Made by a program: the position numbers and the translations under genes
Source: Candidatus Marinarcus aquaticus
Lineage (GTDB): Bacteria; Campylobacterota; Campylobacteria; Campylobacterales; Arcobacteraceae
Reading direction: 5' to 3'
Length of the DNA: 64,000 bases
Assembly: GCF_004116335.1 (NCBI RefSeq)
Contig: NZ_PDKN01000004.1
Span: 124,001-188,000, forward strand
The notes under the pieces: model-generated
The model's database searches: none
What the model was told of the DNA's origin: nothing
Seen by the model: only the letters and a program-made list of their open reading frames with translations
Shown: positions 3,022-13,029 of the stretch, piece after piece
Numbering within the stretch: the first letter of the stretch is position 1
How the letters are laid out: the number at the start of each line of letters is the position of its first letter

Positions 3022-3161
3022 GCATCTTCCTTTGAAGTGTATTATAGCAAAAGGCTATACAAAATAACATTACAAAAAAATAATCTTTTATGGCTTTACC
3101 TCACAATTCTCTTTTATAAAAATAATGTTAATATAACACTACAAAAGAAGAAGGGTCCGCG

Positions 3162-5147
3162 TTGAGTAAAAATCTCATTTCAAACCAAAAACTGATATTT
3201 CGTATCATCTCACTGCTTTTAGCTGTTAGTATTATTCTTATCCTTGTTTCAAGTATTTATATCAAACAAACAGCATTGACTCGATTGGCACAAGACGATG
3301 CTAAAAAAACGAGTGAACTTATTTTTGAAATCATGAATACCAAGATGCAAGAAGGCTGGGCTAAAGAGGATTTAAAATCCATTTTAAGTCGTTTGGAACA
3401 TATTCGAGAAGGCTTGACCGTTCACTCCTACAGAAGTGCATTGGTTGAAGAAATTTTAGGGAAGAATGAAGCGGATTCAATTGTTGTAAAAAATGATAAA
3501 GCCATCCAAAAAGCGATGCAAGGTGAAGAACAATTTATTGTAGAAAAAGATGGCTCCATTCGATACATCTATCCCATTCACGTGAACCAAGAGTGTATCA
3601 CCTGTCATTATAATACCAAAGTTGGTGATATCAATGGGGTGTTAGATATTACGTATCCACCAAGTGAAATTAAAATTTCACTCAATGAACTGACCTATTG
3701 GTTCATTGCTTTTTTTATTCTTTTTATTTTAATCTTTTTTTATATTTTCTATTTGGTGGTCAATAAAAAAATCATCAGCCCTATTGTGGGATTTACCCAA
3801 ACCATCAAAGAGCTAACCAAAGAGAAGAATTTAGAGAAAAAAGCCAATGTACAAACCAATATCGAAGAGATTCAAACCTTGCAGACCTCTTTTAATAAAC
3901 TGCTTTCAACCATTAAATACTATTATGAGAAACTTTTAGAGAACCTCTATCATGACTCCTTGACCTCATTGGGCAACATGAATAAACTGCAACAAGACTT
4001 ACCTCAATATCCCAAAGCACCTTTGGCCATTATGAGTATTGACAGCTTCAGAGAGTTTAATAACTTCTACGGTATTAAAGTGGGCGATTTCATCATCAAA
4101 GATTTGGCAAAGTTCTTAAAAAAACAGCAACTGGATGGAGTTCAACTTTACCGACTCTATGGGGATGAATTTGCCTTATTGTTTACAAATAATACCACCG
4201 TTGAAGAGTGTAATGACCTCATTACTAAAATTTCACAGCATGAGTTTAAATACAAAAACATCAATATCTATATTCAAGTGACAATGGGAATTGTATTTAT
4301 TGCCGAAAAACGAAGAATTGAGAAAGCCACCATTGCTCTTAAAAATGCGAAAAAACATAAAAAAAGTTTGCGTCTGTTTAAAGAGTCTATCTTGCTTCAA
4401 GAGGAATATGAACAACACATCAAATGGACACAATACCTCAAAGATGCGATTGAACAAAACAACATTGTGCCCGTCTTTCAACCCATTAAAGCTGTAGGCA
4501 GTGAAAACATTAAAAAATATGAGTGTTTGGCAAGAGTTTTAAAAGATGGGCACTATCATGTTCCTTTTGAGTTTTTAGAAGTGGCTAAAAAAGCGAAACT
4601 TTATCCCAACATCACTCAAATCATGATAGAAAAGACCTTCGAGTATTTCAGTACAAGAAAAGAGTTGGAGTTTTCTATTAACTACTCAATTGATGATATA
4701 CAAAACCCTCAAACCACAGGAAAACTTTTCAGTTTACTCGAACAATATGAACTGGGTGATCGTTTGATCATTGAACTGCTTGAAACTGAAGAGATTAATG
4801 ACTTTATTGTGTTAAACAACTTTATTACACGTGCGAAAAAATACAAGGTGCGTATTGCTATTGATGACTTTGGCAGTGGTTACTCTAATTTCTCATATTT
4901 AATCAATATGAACATCGATTATCTGAAAATTGACAGTTCACTCATTGAAAAAATTGATGTCTCACACGATTCACTTCGAGTGGTTAAAACCATCATTGCA
5001 TTTGCCAAAGAATTACACCTTCAAACCATTGCAGAAAAAGTACACTCAGCACAAATTGAATCGATTTTATTGGATTTAGGTGTGGATTATTTACAAGGAT
5101 ATCATATCGGAAAACCTGAACCTGAAGTGCTTGCAGTTAAAGAATAA
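3162..5147 (+). CDS. Membrane c-di-GMP protein: periplasmic CxxCH sensor, GGDEF-like, EAL-like
   Basis: 661 residues: TM helix (about 13-34), periplasmic sensor of the Tll0287/DUF3365 type with a heme-c site QECITCH (C145, C148, H149), second TM (about 178-200), short linker, GGDEF-like domain (about 255-405) and EAL domain (about 415-655). The GGDEF motif is YGDEF (333-337), which departs from GG(D/E)EF, so cyclase activity is doubtful. The EAL domain has ECLAR at 454 in place of EALxR but keeps NYS, the ELLETE stretch and IDDFGSGYS with D568/D569, so phosphodiesterase activity is plausible. The likely job is to link periplasmic redox or a gaseous ligand to c-di-GMP turnover. The start is TTG at 3162 behind AGAAGAAGGG. 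It is a stand-alone gene ending in a bidirectional hairpin. Confidence 0.82.
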   Translation: MSKNLISNQKLIFRIISLLLAVSIILILVSSIYIKQTALTRLAQDDAKKTSELIFEIMNTKMQEGWAKEDLKSILSRLEHIREGLTVHSYRSALVEEILGKNEADSIVVKNDKAIQKAMQGEEQFIVEKDGSIRYIYPIHVNQECITCHYNTKVGDINGVLDITYPPSEIKISLNELTYWFIAFFILFILIFFYIFYLVVNKKIISPIVGFTQTIKELTKEKNLEKKANVQTNIEEIQTLQTSFNKLLSTIKYYYEKLLENLYHDSLTSLGNMNKLQQDLPQYPKAPLAIMSIDSFREFNNFYGIKVGDFIIKDLAKFLKKQQLDGVQLYRLYGDEFALLFTNNTTVEECNDLITKISQHEFKYKNINIYIQVTMGIVFIAEKRRIEKATIALKNAKKHKKSLRLFKESILLQEEYEQHIKWTQYLKDAIEQNNIVPVFQPIKAVGSENIKKYECLARVLKDGHYHVPFEFLEVAKKAKLYPNITQIMIEKTFEYFSTRKELEFSINYSIDDIQNPQTTGKLFSLLEQYELGDRLIIELLETEEINDFIVLNNFITRAKKYKVRIAIDDFGSGYSNFSYLINMNIDYLKIDSSLIEKIDVSHDSLRVVKTIIAFAKELHLQTIAEKVHSAQIESILLDLGVDYLQGYHIGKPEPEVLAVKE

Positions 5148-5172: not shown

Positions 5173-5481
5173 TTAAAACTGGATATAGACCATTCCCTCT
5201 TCAATTTTTGTTTCATAAGGCTTAACACACCCCGCACCCTCCTCTAAAGCAACACCATTTTCTAAATTGATATCCAAATTATGTAAAGGACACGTAATGA
5301 TATGTTCATGCACCAACCCTTCGCTGAGTTGTCCCTTTTTATGTGGACACTCATTTTTCACAGCAAAGATCAATTCATCTCGTGTTTTAAAGAGTGCAAT
5401 CTCTTCATTTGCAATCACAACTTTTCGCGCACCCATTGAAGGAATGTTTTCAACTTCTATTATTTTAATCCAAGTTCCCAT
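5173..5481 (-). CDS. nirD: Nitrite reductase (NADH) small subunit, Rieske type
   Basis: 102 residues from ATG 5481, chosen because GTAAGGAGAACTGAG precedes it and MGTWIKI matches the family start; a longer frame to 5526 overlaps nirB. It carries an intact Rieske [2Fe-2S] site: CPH (C45, H47) and CPLH (C64, H67). Some NirD proteins lack these ligands, so their presence here is informative. NirD partners NirB in the cytosolic six-electron reduction of nitrite to ammonia with NADH. It begins one base beyond the nirB stop, so the pair is transcribed and probably translated together as the last two genes of the operon. Confidence 0.9.
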   Translation of the reverse strand: MGTWIKIIEVENIPSMGARKVVIANEEIALFKTRDELIFAVKNECPHKKGQLSEGLVHEHIITCPLHNLDINLENGVALEEGAGCVKPYETKIEEGMVYIQF

Positions 5482-5482
5482 C

Positions 5483-7942
5483 TCAGTTCTCCTTACTTTC
5501 ATAATTTGGTAGATCTTTTGTATCAATCACAATGGCATCAAACTCTTTGGTGAAACCTTCATCAATTGATTTTGCCCAAGGGTCTACTTGTGCACTCTTT
5601 TGAGACTCCTCAAATCGTCGTGCATAGTAATCAAGTTTTTCTTTATCAAAGAGTGTGTCTTTAACATATTGTAACCCTACTCGCTCTACCCAATGTGCGG
5701 TTCTCTCTAAATAATACGCGTCCTCTCTGTAAAACTGCATAAAGGCTTTAACATACTCTATGAGCTCTTCATCGGTTTCTACTTTACACAGTAAATCGGT
5801 TACTCGCACCTTGATACCACCATTTCCTGCAACATGTATCTCCCAACCAGAATCCACACCAATGATTCCAAAATCTTTGATGGTTGCTTCAGCACAGTTT
5901 CTTGGACATCCAGATACTGCAATTTTATACTTGTGAGGTGTCCAACTTCCCCAAGTGAGTCTCTCTATATCAATTCCCATTTGCATCGAGTCTTGTGTAC
6001 CAAATCGACACCATTGATTTCCTACACATGTTTTAACAGTTCGTAATCCTTTGGCATAGGCTTGTCCTGAGACAAACCCACAATCATTTAAATCCTTCCA
6101 CATGGGTTCAAGTTGCTCTTTTTTAACGCCCAACATATCAAGACGTTGACCACCTGTGAATTTTACTGTAGGCACATCATATTTGACGGCAATTTGAGCA
6201 ATGTCTTGTAACTCTTTAGGAGAAGTCAAACCTCCCCAAATTCTTGGAACCACAGAATACGTACCATCTTTTTGAATATTTGCAGAGACTCGGTCATTGA
6301 TTAAGGCACTTCGTTTGTCATTGGTGTATTTATCGTCGTTGTATTTAACAAGCAGATAGTAGTTCACAGCTGGTCGACATTTTGCACACCCGTCTTGCGT
6401 TTTCCAATCGAGTTTTTTAAACACTTCATACACATTTTCAAACTCACCTTCAAGGATGCTTTGTTTAATCTCTTTATGTCCTAGAGTCGTACAACCACAA
6501 ATACCTTCAGGTTGACTGTCGTATTCATCTCCTAAAGTATTCACTAAAATCTGCTCAACAAGTCCTAAACAAGAACCACATGAAGCGCCTGCTTTTGTAC
6601 ACGCTTTAACTTCATTGAGCGATTTTAAATCTTTATCTTTAATGGCCTTTACAATGTCGCCTTTACACACTCCATTACATCCGCACACCTCTTCATCATC
6701 ACTCATGGCATTAACGTCATTGCCACCATGACCACTGTCACCCAATGCCGATTTTCCAAATAAAATCTTCGTTCGTAAATCAGAGATATTCGTATGCTCT
6801 TTTAAAAGTTTTAAGTACCATGAGGCATCTGCTGTATCTCCATATAAAACAATTCCGATGATTCTGTTTTCATAGATGACCAACTTCTTATAAATACCCA
6901 CTTTTTCATCCAATAAAATCAACTCTTCAGTGGTTTCATCTCCCAAATAATCCCCTGCACTGAACAAATCCACACCTGAAATTTTAAGTCGTGTTGAGAG
7001 TGTTGAACCACTGTATCCTTCAGTTTTTTTTCCCGCTAAAATCTTTGCTAAGACTTTGGCTTGTTCATACAGTGGTGCCACTAAACCATACGTATTGCCA
7101 TTGTGCTCTACACACTCTCCAATGGCATAAATATTTTCATAACTTGTTTGTAAAAAATCATCCACCACAATACCTTTATTGCAAGCAATATTGGCCTCTT
7201 GTGCTAAAGAAGTATTGGGAATAATCCCCGTTGCAAAAACCACCAGATTGGATTCAACTTTGGAACCATCACTGAAAACAACCTCTTCAACTTCCCTGTG
7301 TCCATTAATTAAGTCTATGGTTGTATCAAGCTTAAACTCAATACCATATTTCTCTAAATTCTTTTGAAGCAGTCGACCACCTGTAGAATCCAGTTGTTGA
7401 GAAAGGATTGAGCCACTTCGGTGCACTAAAATGGTTTTAATATTATGCATGGCAACTCCGTATGCCGCTTCAAGTCCTAAGAGACCACCACCCACAACCA
7501 CAGCTGTTTTACTTGCATCAATCGTATTTAAAATAGCATCCACGTCTGCTTTGGTTCTAAATGCAATCACATTATTTAAACTGCTTCCTTGCGTTTTAGG
7601 AATAAAAGGTTTCGAACCCGTAGCAATCAGAAGCTTGTCATACGAAACCACCTCTCCACTTTCACTGATAACGGTTTTATTATTGGTATTGATATTAACA
7701 ATTTTATCGCCTTTGTGAAGCGTGATGCCATTTTGCTCATACCATTTAGGATGGTTAATAATCGTATCTTCAAAGCTTTTCTCTTTTGATAAAATATAAG
7801 AGAGCATGATACGGTTATAGTTTACATGAGGTTCTTCACCAAAAACTGTGATATCATACTTCGTACTCTCTAACTCCAAAAGGTCTTCAATGGTTCGAAG
7901 ACCGCTCATTCCATTTCCAATAACAACTAGTTTTTCTTTCAT
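5483..7942 (-). CDS. nirB: Nitrite reductase (NADH) large subunit
   Basis: 819 residues. Order of domains: FAD/NADH oxidoreductase (VVIGNGMSG near the start, VVVGGGLLGLEAA mid-domain), two BFD-like [2Fe-2S] segments (CGCNGVCKGD... and ICGCTTLGHK...CAKCRP), then the siroheme nitrite/sulfite reductase half. The [4Fe-4S]-siroheme cysteines are C639 and C645 (CVGNQWC) and C679 and C683 (CPRNC). The reaction is NADH-dependent reduction of nitrite to ammonium in the cytosol. I start at ATG 7942 behind AAGGAAGAAGC; the open frame reaches 8050 but that part overlaps the kinase gene and resembles nothing. It sits between the phosphatase/kinase fusion and nirD on the same strand. No assimilatory nitrate reductase gene is in the window. 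Confidence 0.94.
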   Translation of the reverse strand: MKEKLVVIGNGMSGLRTIEDLLELESTKYDITVFGEEPHVNYNRIMLSYILSKEKSFEDTIINHPKWYEQNGITLHKGDKIVNINTNNKTVISESGEVVSYDKLLIATGSKPFIPKTQGSSLNNVIAFRTKADVDAILNTIDASKTAVVVGGGLLGLEAAYGVAMHNIKTILVHRSGSILSQQLDSTGGRLLQKNLEKYGIEFKLDTTIDLINGHREVEEVVFSDGSKVESNLVVFATGIIPNTSLAQEANIACNKGIVVDDFLQTSYENIYAIGECVEHNGNTYGLVAPLYEQAKVLAKILAGKKTEGYSGSTLSTRLKISGVDLFSAGDYLGDETTEELILLDEKVGIYKKLVIYENRIIGIVLYGDTADASWYLKLLKEHTNISDLRTKILFGKSALGDSGHGGNDVNAMSDDEEVCGCNGVCKGDIVKAIKDKDLKSLNEVKACTKAGASCGSCLGLVEQILVNTLGDEYDSQPEGICGCTTLGHKEIKQSILEGEFENVYEVFKKLDWKTQDGCAKCRPAVNYYLLVKYNDDKYTNDKRSALINDRVSANIQKDGTYSVVPRIWGGLTSPKELQDIAQIAVKYDVPTVKFTGGQRLDMLGVKKEQLEPMWKDLNDCGFVSGQAYAKGLRTVKTCVGNQWCRFGTQDSMQMGIDIERLTWGSWTPHKYKIAVSGCPRNCAEATIKDFGIIGVDSGWEIHVAGNGGIKVRVTDLLCKVETDEELIEYVKAFMQFYREDAYYLERTAHWVERVGLQYVKDTLFDKEKLDYYARRFEESQKSAQVDPWAKSIDEGFTKEFDAIVIDTKDLPNYESKEN

Positions 7943-7980
7943 GCTTCTTCCTTTTATCTTGATTATCAATGTTTTTAATT

Positions 7981-9714
7981 TTATGCAGCGTGATTGAGCC
8001 AATACACAATCAGATGACTTAAGCCCAATAAAATCGCCAGACTTTGCCAAAACAACACAGGGTCTTTTTGCATGATTGCAGGCTTACGATGATGAATCAA
8101 ATTTTTATTGGGTTTTTCCAAATCATGCATAAACTCTGAGAGCAAACCATAACGATTGTGTACATTAATACTTAAGGCCTTTTTTAATGCCTCTTCAAAC
8201 CATTGCGGTACTTTGATGTTTTTATAAATTAAAGGTTGATATTTCAATCTGTTTTGTGCTGATTTGGTTGTTGATTTAGCTACATTGGTGCCATAAGGAA
8301 AATCACCACTCAACATTTGATAAATGATAACAGCCAATGAAAAGATGTCCGATTTGGCCGTTCCCTCCTCTTCTAAAAAGTACTCTGGTGCTGAATACAA
8401 AACTGTTCCTTGCAGATGATGTTGCGTATTAAAACTGTCAATTTCAAGGATCCCTTCTACTTTGGTTGAACCAAAATCAAGGAGAGTAACCACTCCATCT
8501 TTATTGATTAAAATATTTTCAGGTCTCAAATCTTGATGCACCATTTCTAGCGAATGAAATGCTTGTAAACCTTTGGCAATTTGTCTCACAATCCCTCTTA
8601 CTTCTTGCAATGTAGGGTTAGGGTTATCTCGCATCCATTGAGTCAAGGTTTCCCCTTTTATATGGTGTGTTAAAATATAAAGATAGTTTTTAGGTCGATC
8701 AATTTCACACGCTTTGAGAACATGTTTATTATCAATTCGTTTGGCAATCCAATCTTCAAGCAGAAAACTCTCTAAATATGCCATGTCATCTCTTCTGGTA
8801 TGCGCAGGTGTTTTAAGCACCATTTTCTCTGCAGAATGGATCTCTTTAACCAAATAGACATGACTTCGACTGTTGGTGTGTAAAACACTTAAAACTTCAA
8901 AGCCATCAAACAAGTCTCCTTCATTTAAAAATTCAGGTATGGGTTTTTCATAAATCTCATTTTGAATCTCATTGGCCTCTTTCTTGGGCAAATTATCAAC
9001 TCTTAATATTTGCAAAGTAAGGTTATCATCACTGCCATTTTGCATCGCTTTATGAATTATCTCTTTTGCAATGTCATTGAAGTCATCCTGAGAAGCTTGT
9101 AACATATCAATGAGACCATTCAGTTCTATAAACTCATAGACCCCATCGGTCATAAGTAAAAAAACATCTCCTTTTTCCAAAGAAAAAGCTTCATAATCGC
9201 TGTGAATAACCGAATCAATCCCCATGGCTCTGGCCAAATAACTTTTATCTTTGCTGATCCATGTTCGATGGTCTGTGGTTAACTGCTCTAAACTGTTTCC
9301 TCTTAATCTATAAATACGAATATCCCCAACATGAAAAAGGTGTGCAGTGGTTGATTTTAAAACCAAACCAGTGAACGTACATACAAATCCACTGTCTTTT
9401 TCATAATGGTATTGGTTCTCTCTGTTTTTTGCATACAACCATGAATTGGTTGCATGCATCACTTTCATCACAGAATTTTTCACACTCCACGCTTCACTGG
9501 TGCAATAATAATCCTCCAAAAAAGATTGAACACTCACTTGGCTGGCTTCTTGGCTGACAGAGCTGCTGCTGATCCCATCTGCCATACAAAGAGCAATTCC
9601 TTTGGTCGTAAGAAAAGGCTCTTTAGGAATAAAAATATCACAAAAGTCTTGATTGATATTTTTAACCCCTTTGTTGGAATACGCTGCATATGTAATTTGT
9701 AAACTGCTTTGCAT
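7981..9714 (-). CDS. PP2C phosphatase / Ser-Thr protein kinase fusion with C-terminal membrane anchor
   Basis: 577 residues. Residues 1-240 are a PP2C (PPM) phosphatase with metal-binding NQD, MADGIS, LMTDGVYEF and SDDNLTL. Residues about 265-530 are a Hanks-type kinase: VLK lysine, HQDLRPEN with catalytic D395, DFG at D413, and YSAPE. Residues about 553-573 are one hydrophobic helix close to the C-terminus, so both domains face the cytosol. The two opposed activities in one chain suggest a switch on nitrite uptake or reduction; the target is unknown. From general knowledge, such fusions recur in nitrate/nitrite assimilation clusters. It lies between the nirC-like channel and nirB. ATG 9714 has AGAGG upstream. 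Two hairpins in the leader may lower its expression relative to the channel gene. Confidence 0.88.
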   Translation of the reverse strand: MQSSLQITYAAYSNKGVKNINQDFCDIFIPKEPFLTTKGIALCMADGISSSSVSQEASQVSVQSFLEDYYCTSEAWSVKNSVMKVMHATNSWLYAKNRENQYHYEKDSGFVCTFTGLVLKSTTAHLFHVGDIRIYRLRGNSLEQLTTDHRTWISKDKSYLARAMGIDSVIHSDYEAFSLEKGDVFLLMTDGVYEFIELNGLIDMLQASQDDFNDIAKEIIHKAMQNGSDDNLTLQILRVDNLPKKEANEIQNEIYEKPIPEFLNEGDLFDGFEVLSVLHTNSRSHVYLVKEIHSAEKMVLKTPAHTRRDDMAYLESFLLEDWIAKRIDNKHVLKACEIDRPKNYLYILTHHIKGETLTQWMRDNPNPTLQEVRGIVRQIAKGLQAFHSLEMVHQDLRPENILINKDGVVTLLDFGSTKVEGILEIDSFNTQHHLQGTVLYSAPEYFLEEEGTAKSDIFSLAVIIYQMLSGDFPYGTNVAKSTTKSAQNRLKYQPLIYKNIKVPQWFEEALKKALSINVHNRYGLLSEFMHDLEKPNKNLIHHRKPAIMQKDPVLFWQSLAILLGLSHLIVYWLNHAA

Positions 9715-9744
9715 GATTGTTTAATACCTCTGTTTTTTACATGA

Positions 9745-9769
9745 ATAAAACATTCAAATAATGTTTTAT
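9745..9769. other. Second hairpin in the channel-kinase gap
   Basis: ATAAAACATT pairs perfectly with AATGTTTTAT across a 5-base loop. It follows the terminator-like hairpin of the channel gene in the minus-strand direction. It could protect an mRNA end or attenuate read-through into the kinase gene; function is inferred from position only. Confidence 0.4.
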
Positions 9770-9775
9770 CCCTAT

Positions 9776-9805
9776 AAAAAGAGAGCATGGAAATACTCTC
9801 TTTTT
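9776..9805 (-). terminator. Intrinsic terminator after the nirC-like gene
   Basis: Perfect 10-bp stem AAAAAGAGAG / CTCTCTTTTT with a 10-base loop, directly after the nirC stop on the minus strand. Because nirB and nirD need transcripts too, this is probably partial, or the kinase-nirBD part has its own promoter. Confidence 0.65.
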
Positions 9806-9807
9806 AT

Positions 9808-10656
9808 TTATGCTACTTTTTGTGCACCTGAACTCTTAACTGCTTTTTTCAAAACTCTTTTTCCTCCTGTTTTCACATGAGTATAATAAATCATCAAACC
9901 AACAAAAAAGAGACCTCCAACCATATTACCAAGTGCTACAGGCAATTCATTCCATAAAATATAATCTGAGATGGTAAAATCTCCACCCATGATAAGCGAG
10001 AAAGGAAATAAAAACATATTTACAATTGAGTGTTCAAACCCCATAAAAAAGAAGAGCATGATTGGCATCCACATAGCAAGCCATTTCCCAGATACAGAAG
10101 TGGAAATCATTGCACCAACAACTCCCATAGAGACCATCCAGTTACACAACATCCCTCGAATAAACACGGTAATCCATCCATCAACTCCATATGAGGCATA
10201 TCCCAGTGTTCTTGCTTCACCGATACTGGCAACTTTTATAGCAATGGCACCTCCATCGGTATTAAAACCAAAGGTAAAGACATATGCCATCATTACTGCT
10301 ACAGTAAAGGCACCACCAAAATTACCCAATGCGACCAATCCCCAATTTCTTAAGATTTGTCCAAAGGTGACTCCCGGTCTTTTATCAATCCATGCCAAAG
10401 GCACAAGAGTAAACACACCTGTTAAAAGGTCAAATTTCATTAAATACAACATAATAAAACCAACAGGGAACAGACACGCTCCTAAAATAGGTGATCCTGA
10501 CTTCATTGCAACGGTGATTGCAAAAACTGCAGCCAATGCTAAAATTGCACCGGCCATATAAGCTCTGATTAATGTGTCTTTTGTCGACATAAATACCTTT
10601 TGTTCACCAGCATCAACCATTTTCGTGGCAAACTCATTGGGTTCAATATAAGCCAT
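9808..10656 (-). CDS. nirC: Formate/nitrite channel family protein, probably nitrite uptake (NirC)
   Basis: 282 residues with about six membrane helices, as in the FocA/NirC pentameric channels. Family marks include LVPLAWIDKRP, NWGLVALGNFGGA (amphipathic interruption), MLCNWMVSMG and FEHSIVNMFLFP, whose histidine is the conserved central-pore residue. It moves small monovalent anions across the inner membrane. Formate is possible, but the neighbours nirB and nirD make nitrite the better guess. The ATG at 10656 follows AAAAAGGAGCTTTT, a strong site. It is the first gene of the nir operon and is divergent from the sensor kinase gene with only 67 bp between them, which suggests shared control. 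Confidence 0.85.
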   Translation of the reverse strand: MAYIEPNEFATKMVDAGEQKVFMSTKDTLIRAYMAGAILALAAVFAITVAMKSGSPILGACLFPVGFIMLYLMKFDLLTGVFTLVPLAWIDKRPGVTFGQILRNWGLVALGNFGGAFTVAVMMAYVFTFGFNTDGGAIAIKVASIGEARTLGYASYGVDGWITVFIRGMLCNWMVSMGVVGAMISTSVSGKWLAMWMPIMLFFFMGFEHSIVNMFLFPFSLIMGGDFTISDYILWNELPVALGNMVGGLFFVGLMIYYTHVKTGGKRVLKKAVKSSGAQKVA

Positions 10657-10723: not shown

Positions 10724-12364
10724 TTGAGTAAGGAAAAAGTAAGGAAAAACAAATTTGTTTGTATATTTTTTATACAAAATTTAAAATACGATGCGTTCAG
10801 AACATTTTATAATAGAATCATAGGAGTTCATATCAAAAAATCAATCATCACAATGTTTACCCTCTTTTTATTATTGTTATTCATCTTAATTGGGACAACC
10901 ATTAAAGATTCTTATAAAGTACAAGAGAACTTGTTGTATGAAAACTTAAAGAATAAAGCCGTGACAATTTTTAATCTCATTGTAGACATGCGTCATTGGA
11001 ATGCGCAATATGATGGCGTATATATAAAATCTGAAGAGTTAGAACCCAATCCATACTTAAACCCAAATTTTATCTTATCGCAAAAAGGAGAGAGACTGGT
11101 TTGGGTCAATCCTGCATTTATGACACGCCAAATCTCAGAGATTGCGAGTAAACGAGCTGGTTTTCGATTAAAAATCACCAGTAATAAGCTCATCAATAAA
11201 AACAATGCCCCCGATGAATATGAAAAAAAGATGCTCGACAGATTTGATAAAACCCCTGATGTTCCATACTACTGGACCATTGAAAAAGATGTCTTTAAAT
11301 TTATGGGAGCTTTAAAAACAGAACCTGACTGTTTAAAGTGTCATGCACATCAAGGGTATAAAATAGGCGATGTACGAGGAGCCATCAGCATCTATTTTGA
11401 TACCTCCGATGAGCTTGAACAACTCACTACATTGCAAAAAGACAAAGAACAGACCATTATTTTTCTTATATTGGCCACCATTGGTACCATCATCACTTTT
11501 GTCATTTATCAACGTTTAAAAGCAAAAGATGAACAAGAGATTTCAAACTTAAATCATACCTTAGAACTGAAAGTCAAAGAGTTGGATGATTTTAATAAAA
11601 CCTTACATAATAAAGTTCAAGAAGAGGTGGGCAAACAACGAGAAAAAGAGAAGTTATTGATTCAACAATCCAAGCTTGCGGCTTTGGGTGAGATGATAGG
11701 CAATGTGGCACACCAATGGCGACAACCTATCAGTGCAGTCAGTGCTATTATGATGAATATCAAGTGGACAGCAATGGATCAAGGATTGAATACAACATTT
11801 TTAGAAGAACGTATTCAAGAGGCCAATGAACAACTCAAATATATGTCTCAAACCATTGATGATTTTAGAAACTTTTTTAAACCCAACAAAGAGAAAAGCT
11901 ATTTTGACCTTAAAAAAGAGTGTCGTAATGCAATTAAGATTTTAAATGCCACCTTACAACATCACAACATTAATTTACAGCTGTTCTCTTCTAAAGATAT
12001 GATTGCTTACGGTTATGCCAACGAGTTTTCACAAGTCGTTTTAAATATAATCTCTAACGCAAAAGATGTGTTACTGGAGAGAAAAATCCAAAAACCACGT
12101 ATTGAAATACATATTTATAAAGATGAACACTCTGTTCATTGTGAAATCAATGATAATGCAGGTGGTATTTCACTTGAATACATTGATCGAATCTTTGAAC
12201 CCTATTTTACCACCAAAGAGCTCAATGGAACAGGCATTGGTCTATACATTGCAAAAGAGATTATTCATAAACACATGAAAGGTACACTCAAAGTTAAAAA
12301 CAGTGATAAAGGTGCTGTATTTATTATATCTGTACCAAAAGGAGACTCCTTGTGCAACCATTGA
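10724..12364 (+). CDS. Sensor histidine kinase with periplasmic CxxCH heme-type domain
   Basis: Up to 546 residues. After a TM helix (about 44-62) comes a periplasmic DUF3365/Tll0287-like sensor with CLKCH (C203, C206, H207), a second TM (about 243-262), a coiled coil, and a histidine kinase core: H-box AALGEMIGNVAHQWRQP with H330, N-box NEFSQVVLNIISNAKD, G boxes EINDNAGGI and GTGIGLYIA. The start is uncertain. The frame opens at TTG 10724 with a poor site, AGGAG at 10822-10826 has no normal start codon at the right distance, and ATG 10853 begins at the TM helix. It overlaps the response regulator by 13 bases. Divergent from nirC, it may report nitrite, NO or redox state; that is inference. 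Confidence 0.85.
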   Translation: MSKEKVRKNKFVCIFFIQNLKYDAFRTFYNRIIGVHIKKSIITMFTLFLLLLFILIGTTIKDSYKVQENLLYENLKNKAVTIFNLIVDMRHWNAQYDGVYIKSEELEPNPYLNPNFILSQKGERLVWVNPAFMTRQISEIASKRAGFRLKITSNKLINKNNAPDEYEKKMLDRFDKTPDVPYYWTIEKDVFKFMGALKTEPDCLKCHAHQGYKIGDVRGAISIYFDTSDELEQLTTLQKDKEQTIIFLILATIGTIITFVIYQRLKAKDEQEISNLNHTLELKVKELDDFNKTLHNKVQEEVGKQREKEKLLIQQSKLAALGEMIGNVAHQWRQPISAVSAIMMNIKWTAMDQGLNTTFLEERIQEANEQLKYMSQTIDDFRNFFKPNKEKSYFDLKKECRNAIKILNATLQHHNINLQLFSSKDMIAYGYANEFSQVVLNIISNAKDVLLERKIQKPRIEIHIYKDEHSVHCEINDNAGGISLEYIDRIFEPYFTTKELNGTGIGLYIAKEIIHKHMKGTLKVKNSDKGAVFIISVPKGDSLCNH

Positions 12365-13029
12365 TTTCCTTAAAATCAAAAACCATTTTATTGGTTGAAG
12401 ATGAACACATCATACGCAATAATATTGCTTCCATGTTAAAATTCTTTTTTAAAGATGTCTACACTGCATCCAATGGCTTAGAGGGATTAGAACAGTATGA
12501 AAATCATCTGCCTGATATCATCATCACTGATTTAAAAATGCCCTATATGGATGGATTTGAATTTATTACACAACTGCAAGCACGTTTATGTCAATCCTAT
12601 TTGATTATTGTTTCTGCTCATACGGACACAGATTTATTAATTGATGCCATCCATAAAGGAGTGGATCGATATATCATTAAACCCGTTACAGAAGAGGATT
12701 TATTGGGCAGCTTTAATGCTTTTTTAAAAAAAACGGAACACACCTCAACGCAAATTCAACTGGATGAACATATCTTCATTGATTTTGAAAAGAATTCCGT
12801 AACGGCATATAACAAATCCTTTCATTTAAATAAAAAAGAGTTTGCTTTATTAAAACTGTTGTGTTCCAATATAAATAAAACATTTACTTATGAAGAGATA
12901 GAGTACCAAGTATGGGGAGAGTACTCTATGAGCCTTTCAGCCCTAAGAAGTGTTGTAAGAGATTTAAGAAAAAAACTGGGACAAAACTATATTATCAATA
13001 TTCACAGAACAGGTTATCGATTCAAATAA
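12352..13029 (+). CDS. OmpR-family response regulator
   Basis: 225 residues: receiver domain (about 8-125) with the acidic pair in VEDEH, phospho-acceptor D60 in IITDLKMPYMDG, and the conserved lysine in IIKPVTEEDL, followed by a winged-helix DNA-binding domain (about 135-225) with LRSVVRDLRKKLG and the terminal NIHRTGYRFK. It is the cognate partner of the overlapping kinase gene. The start is GTG 12352 behind AAAAGGAGACTCCTT; no ATG is available near. The likely targets are nearby, the divergent nirC promoter being the obvious one, but no clear direct repeat was found in the 67-bp gap. Confidence 0.9.
   Translation: MQPLISLKSKTILLVEDEHIIRNNIASMLKFFFKDVYTASNGLEGLEQYENHLPDIIITDLKMPYMDGFEFITQLQARLCQSYLIIVSAHTDTDLLIDAIHKGVDRYIIKPVTEEDLLGSFNAFLKKTEHTSTQIQLDEHIFIDFEKNSVTAYNKSFHLNKKEFALLKLLCSNINKTFTYEEIEYQVWGEYSMSLSALRSVVRDLRKKLGQNYIINIHRTGYRFK

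Follow-up and report, generated by a model that had tools for sequence, protein, structure and literature searches.

A Single-Chain PP2C Phosphatase/Hanks-Type Kinase Encoded Mostly After Anion Transporter Genes: a Candidate Phospho-Switch in a Nitrite Assimilation Operon of Candidatus Marinarcus aquaticus

Introduction

Opposed kinase and phosphatase activities acting at the membrane are represented in bacteria by the PknB/StkP kinases with the Stp/PstP phosphatases, and in plants nitrate transporters are controlled by kinases and a PP2C phosphatase (CIPK23-NRT1.1, CEPH-NRT2.1). In bacterial nitrate, nitrite and cyanate uptake, post-translational control is known mainly via PII-type proteins. 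Here we describe a protein in which a PP2C domain, a Hanks-type kinase domain and a C-terminal membrane helix are joined in one chain (the fusion), encoded between the genes of an FNT-family channel and of the nitrite reductase large subunit (nirB) in a 64,000-nucleotide stretch of DNA from Candidatus Marinarcus aquaticus (hereafter, the window; NCBI RefSeq assembly GCF_004116335.1, contig NZ_PDKN01000004.1, positions 124,001 to 188,000, forward strand). Comparison with its relatives makes it somewhat more credible than not, in our judgment, that the fusion, tethered to the membrane, is a phospho-switch dedicated to the anion transporter whose gene lies directly upstream, in this case a NasH-like FNT.

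The fusion resembles the PknB/StkP and Stp/PstP systems in its kinase sequence matches and in the structural matches of its model (PknB, PstP), and differs from them in being one chain rather than two, in having no PASTA domains, in its non-RD catalytic motif and glycine-free nucleotide loop, and in missing the NCBIfam equivalog cut-offs (PknB_PASTA, 124.5 of 450 bits; Stp1, 104.7 of 230 bits). The plant systems offer a works-like analogy, the reversible phosphorylation of anion uptake, by separate eukaryotic enzymes and with no homology claimed. What is already known of the family itself is a RefSeq name, 'bifunctional protein-serine/threonine kinase/phosphatase', which covers the same architecture mostly in the same position after FNT, NarK or NasA-type genes; public annotation already shows the family near nitrate genes. 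Within this family, the window member stands out by its operon, FNT-nirBD with no cyanase; nirB is not adjacent in most FNT-linked relatives. For the association with the transporter over three transporter families, no description was found in the literature searched. That literature likewise yielded no functional study of the fusion, a weak negative, as subscription journals were mostly outside its coverage. Pseudomonas aeruginosa PA1782 is presumably a nas-linked relative. One paper that mentions PA1782 merely counts it among Ser/Thr kinases.

If the proposed role is true, a kinase and phosphatase on one chain, mostly encoded right after the transporter gene, would constitute a second and directly testable control route beside PII-type proteins. 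With partners from unrelated transporter families, it would also be a natural test case for the recognition of different membrane proteins by a single kinase.

Results

Association of the Fusion With Upstream Transporters

Positions 5173-10656 of the window hold, in minus-strand order, the genes of the FNT (282 aa), the fusion (577 aa), NirB and NirD, the fusion lying downstream of the FNT on the same strand after a gap of 93 bases (Table 1). The order of channel, fusion and nirB and the coordinates of the region that an earlier note, made by a model from the sequence, had given were right.

Relatives were compared at 180 loci, comprising the window, 12 loci from plasmids, 7 from named genomes, 20 Campylobacterota-like relatives (10 close and 7 distant ones taken from 58 matches, plus G016, G030 and G056), 11 from the class of a Methylobacterium genome (11 of 15 matches fetched; G377 was already included as L003) and 129 from the class of a Sulfurimicrobium genome (129 matches, leaving out partial matches, ones cut at the contig start and two distant rows). 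Of the 180 loci, 179 carry a fusion with a length of 480 aa or more; L005, with NarK upstream of a fusion cut at 474 aa, was excluded. One proteobacterial class contributed 369 sampled genomes, of which 124 contain the fusion. On plasmids, it is found in 33 records (15 typed as mobilizable), at 26-49% identity to the window protein over 91-99% of its length.

When the same strand was examined for a transporter gene immediately upstream, an intervening cynS being permitted, one was found for 147 of the 179 relatives: NarK in 80, an FNT in 52 and a NasA-type MFS protein in 15. Five of the 32 remaining loci lie at contig ends, and a frame-tolerant search (about 3 kb, either side or strand) recovered a transporter for 13 of the 32. 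The 12 plasmid records opened agree with this picture, the fusion mostly following an FNT, NarK or NasA-type gene. Searches that started from the FNT instead placed the fusion in the short flank at 26 of 28 loci scoring at least 330 bits to the window FNT and at none of 40 scoring below (two further loci yielded no FNT and stand outside these counts); among plasmids, a similar FNT occurs in 55 records, 24 of which also carry the fusion, the two genes being far apart in one (Vibrio). The conserved synteny whose absence the earlier note had named as a refutation exists with the transporter, and not with nirB.

Transporter type follows the phylogeny of the fusion closely. On an unrooted FastTree phylogeny of the kinase (179 rows), it changes 2 times, the minimum for three types. 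On the 113 rows that are paired with a transporter and have flanks of 3.5 kb or more on both sides, the changes number 2 for transporter type, 26 for nirB nearby and 9 for cynS nearby, vs. shuffled means of 44.7, 36.9 and 19.5, respectively. For the FNT-linked kinases (52/52), and likewise for the NasA-linked ones (15/15), a branch with support 100 has the whole group to one side, in neither case with a foreign labeled row. The nearest neighbor of the FNT-linked group is L146, with the order NarK-fusion-nirB; as the tree is unrooted, it does not give the direction of the partner switch. Distances of fusion and FNT are correlated (Mantel r 0.50 over 52 pairs), more strongly than those of fusion and NirB at 14 loci with NirB (0.63 vs. 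0.38) or of fusion and CynS at 26 loci with CynS (0.46 vs. 0.35), all of these values including species history.

Fifteen genomes (G006, G019, G032, G704, G706, G742, G746, G748, G803, G850, G875, G916, G967, G978 and G1012) carry two fusions, one beside an FNT and the other beside NarK or NasA, with a single NirB match per genome, as a transporter-dedicated enzyme would predict. G006, G019 and G032 hold both the window-type fusion and a distant NasA-linked kind. A distant fusion (26-30% identity) also stands right after a NasA-type MFS gene at L067, L068 and L070-L073, mostly near nitrate-reductase-like genes.

Domain Architecture and Catalytic Residues

All three parts of the chain that the earlier note had described, a PP2C domain, a Hanks kinase with D395 and D413, and a C-terminal membrane anchor, were borne out by Pfam, residues, hydropathy and model. 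Pfam places PF13672 at residues 19-225 (E 1.5e-14) and PF00069 at residues 283-524 (E 6.4e-36), and recognizes no sensor domain. The C-terminal hydrophobic helix passed the hydropathy test in 179 of 179 relatives. In an AlphaFold2 model (mean predicted local distance difference test score, 73.3), the helix occupies residues 552-576, while comparison with the PDB matched the kinase part to PknB-type and the phosphatase part to PstP/tPphA-type structures; the best PDB sequence matches of the kinase domain are StkP and PknB.

The word "intact" used for this kinase holds for the catalytic set (K301, E320, D395 of HxD, N400 and D413 of DFG) and does not extend to the nucleotide loop, which reads HTNSRSHVYL and contains zero glycines, or to the HRD position, which reads HQD (glutamine in 117 and arginine in 47 of the 179 relatives). 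K301 and N400 are conserved in 179/179 rows, D395 in 177/179 and D413 in 178/179. Since the Lys, the Glu, both Asp and the Asn are retained, the absence of the loop glycines and of the HRD arginine was not taken as a sign of a dead kinase, and this possibility was rejected. The PP2C domain of the window protein has aspartates D23, D46, D131, D190 and D230, with D46 present in 178/179 and D131 in 179/179 rows. A search for a single gene fusing the kinase with a transporter found none; in the longest frame (L210, 934 aa), the only reference matched is the fusion, starting at residue 369, and NarK stands upstream in a broken frame.

Identity of the FNT Channel

The channel was previously called NirC-like. 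It belongs to the FNT family and falls far short of the NirC equivalog cut-off (53.9 bits vs. 293), and it likewise misses that of FocA. It is nearer to NasH of Paracoccus denitrificans, sharing 66.2% identity over 98% with the FNT encoded in a plasmid cluster with the order nasA-like, nirB, nirD, FNT, nasC-like. It shares with the nasABGHC system both the FNT subfamily and nirB/nirD-type neighbors, whereas the Paracoccus clusters fetched have no fusion. Mutants implicate P. denitrificans NasH in bidirectional nitrite transport (PMC5217062). By gene context alone, the substrate of the window FNT would be nitrite.

Reductase and Cyanase Neighbors

The reductase is a far less constant companion than the transporter: nirB lies within 3.5 kb of 50 of the 113 transporter-paired fusions with enough flank. 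Among the 43 FNT loci with such flank, a NirB- or NirA-type reductase is found within this distance at 16, cyanase at 22, both at 10 and neither at 15. A NirB match at E<=1e-100 is absent from 8 of 50 genomes with FNT-linked fusions, and 3 more have one only below the curated cut-off. A NirA-type reductase replaces nirB near the fusion at L061, L064, L065 and L066. The candidate statement that some fusion genomes have no nitrite reductase at all was rejected, as two NirB-less loci proved to carry a NirA-type reductase beside the fusion and more were found later, and the claim is therefore confined to NirB, which, judged by genomic occurrence, is dispensable for the FNT-fusion pairing.

Between the FNT and the fusion, cynS is inserted in the Campylobacterota relatives L055-L060, L062, L065 and L066, but neither in the window nor in its closest relative, L054; the genome of the window contains no cyanase match. 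Operons of this type are thus units of cyanate uptake no less than of nitrite uptake, and the fusion is not confined to nitrite assimilation. On mobilizable plasmids of Acinetobacter and Psychrobacter (L019, L029), FNT, fusion and cyanase genes occur together, with insertion sequences near them on the Acinetobacter plasmid.

Discussion

The earlier note had suggested phospho-control either of nitrite entry or of NirBD. The first alternative, widened to anion entry, is favored by the way in which the fusion follows the transporter over three families, on plasmids as well as chromosomes; the second is disfavored by the presence of nirB near only 50 of 113 fusions. The transporter, rather than NirBD, is thus the likelier client of the fusion, or its sensor, as far as gene neighborhoods can tell.

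In the mechanism that we infer, as regards the transporter as substrate, the modified residue, the signal and its sign, a cytoplasmic Ser/Thr of the transporter would receive phosphate from the kinase domain, the most plausible places being the N-terminal segment MSTKDT (S24/T25/T28) and the THVKT tail at the C-terminus, and would lose it again to the PP2C domain of the same polypeptide. Phosphorylation would close the channel under plentiful reduced nitrogen or high cytoplasmic nitrite and dephosphorylation would reopen it, the sign being a guess. Non-RD kinases generally need no phosphorylation of the activation segment, and the HQD motif suggests such independence for this kinase; control would then come from a ligand, from contact with the transporter or from the phosphatase. 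A more general proposition, which we advance tentatively and are slightly inclined to doubt, is a bacterial system for the reversible gating of small-anion uptake, in which a single membrane-tethered kinase/phosphatase chain has been passed between unrelated folds (MFS NarK, MFS NasA, pentameric FNT) and serves for nitrate, nitrite and cyanate. Two outliers, with an amino-acid permease (L257) and an ethanolamine lyase (L255), may hint at an extension to other nitrogen sources. In these diverged loci, the L255 fusion precedes the ethanolamine lyase gene and the L257 fusion is flanked by two amino-acid permease genes.

Several observations weigh against the transporter as a phosphorylated client. 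Adjacency alone is no proof of a kinase-substrate relation, and the label counts across relatives rest on related sequences. Even the frame-tolerant search left 19 of the 179 fusions with no transporter found nearby, a contig end cutting 3 of these, and at L242, L244 and L246 the fusion directly precedes nirBD-nasC. Conversely, FNTs 65-70% identical to that of the window stand beside nirBD without the fusion in Moraxella and Paracoccus, a Ciceribacter cluster has a similar FNT and a nearby nirB without it, and on the FNT tree pairing with the fusion changes 7 times among 70 rows. Since close FNTs occur without it, the fusion is an accessory of the channel and not a requirement. Furthermore, S24, T28, T259 and most other conserved Ser/Thr are about equally conserved in paired and unpaired FNTs. 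At L242, a NasA-type transporter and the fusion are separated by a reverse-transcriptase gene (3056-4810), which may mark the insertion of a group II intron into a former pair.

The acceptor sites were compared between 52 paired and 13 unpaired FNT rows, leaving out five distant or truncated unpaired ones. A kinase-specific acceptor site was rejected as evidence, as both MSTKDT and THVKT are also found in unpaired close FNTs; conservation of T263 differs mildly (0.96 in paired vs. 0.77 in unpaired), and a few columns (e.g., 169 and 181) differ in a comparison uncorrected for kinship, from which no evidence is drawn. That the candidate sites are not specific to paired FNTs speaks against a simple substrate relation and sustains the best placed of the alternatives, in which the transporter is the sensor: transport or occupancy would control the fusion via its membrane helix, and the fusion would phosphorylate a soluble target. 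The same adjacency data fit it, the lack of a recognizable sensor domain means that the signal must come from elsewhere, and the juxtamembrane motif and helix are conserved over the three transporter types. We regard it as unlikely, the neighborhoods examined having no constant soluble partner among those sought.

Slightly less likely still is a target such as a nitrogen-status regulator (e.g., PII) or another unlinked protein, with the fusion merely co-expressed with uptake genes. The cyanobacterial PP2C-type phosphatase PphA acts on PII, and the structures matched by the PP2C domain include tPphA, a Thermosynechococcus relative of PphA, but a shared soluble target would not require that each fusion of the 15 two-fusion genomes stand next to a transporter type of its own.

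NirB or NirD as the target, as offered earlier, would suit the position of the fusion directly before nirB in the window and at 6 of 13 further Campylobacterota FNT loci (L054-L059), as well as the 50 of 113 fusions with nirB nearby. We consider it improbable in view of the 26 changes of nirB adjacency on the kinase tree, the FNT-linked genomes without a NirB match, the loci with a NirA-type enzyme instead and the 15 of 43 FNT loci without NirB, NirA or CynS within 3.5 kb. Marginally less probable is a fusion that hitchhikes on mobile uptake cassettes with no specific transporter role, for which its plasmid records and its absence beside many close FNTs could be cited, but against which stand the retention of the catalytic residues in both the kinase and the PP2C domain across nearly all 179 rows and a pairing that persists through deep divergence.

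Neighboring Genes

Table 1. Features of the nitrite assimilation locus and flanking genes (window coordinates).
Feature	Position	Strand	Evidence or remark
FNT channel, NasH-like, first gene of the operon	9808..10656	-	PF01226 E 8.5e-64; 66.2% identity to Paracoccus denitrificans plasmid FNT
Bifunctional PP2C phosphatase/Hanks-type kinase, C-terminal membrane helix, 577 aa	7981..9714	-	Pfam domains; single copy in genome
PP2C domain, residues ~6-241, metal-binding Asp intact	8992..9699	-	PF13672; model matches PstP and tPphA
Protein kinase domain, residues ~272-534	8113..8901	-	PF00069; model matches PknB
Juxtamembrane motif, residues 545-556, consensus PLxERNPxxFW common to all partner classes	8047..8082	-	
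C-terminal transmembrane helix, residues 552-576	7987..8061	-	Hydropathy in 179/179 relatives; helix in AlphaFold2 model
nirB, nitrite reductase large subunit; ATG start at 7942 from sequence	5483..7942	-	TIGR02374, 914.6 bits vs. cut-off 578
nirD, nitrite reductase small subunit; start codon uncertain	5173..5526	-	TIGR02378, 87.2 bits vs. cut-off 74.65
Divergent histidine kinase, Tll0287-like sensor domain; outside the FNT-fusion pair	10724..12364	+	PF11845 and HATPase_c
OmpR-type response regulator, partner of the histidine kinase	12352..13029	+	PF00072 and PF00486

Upstream of the FNT, a divergent Tll0287-type histidine kinase and response regulator pair is also found at 9 of the 13 further Campylobacterota FNT loci (L054-L062), and likely represents a second, transcriptional control layer. 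In the window, a CxxCH haem motif is visible in the sensor part of this histidine kinase (gene pair at 10724-13029). On the other side of the operon, a GGDEF-EAL protein (3162-5147) faces nirD; Pfam called no sensor domain in its N-terminal part, where a CxxCH motif resembles that of the histidine kinase sensor.

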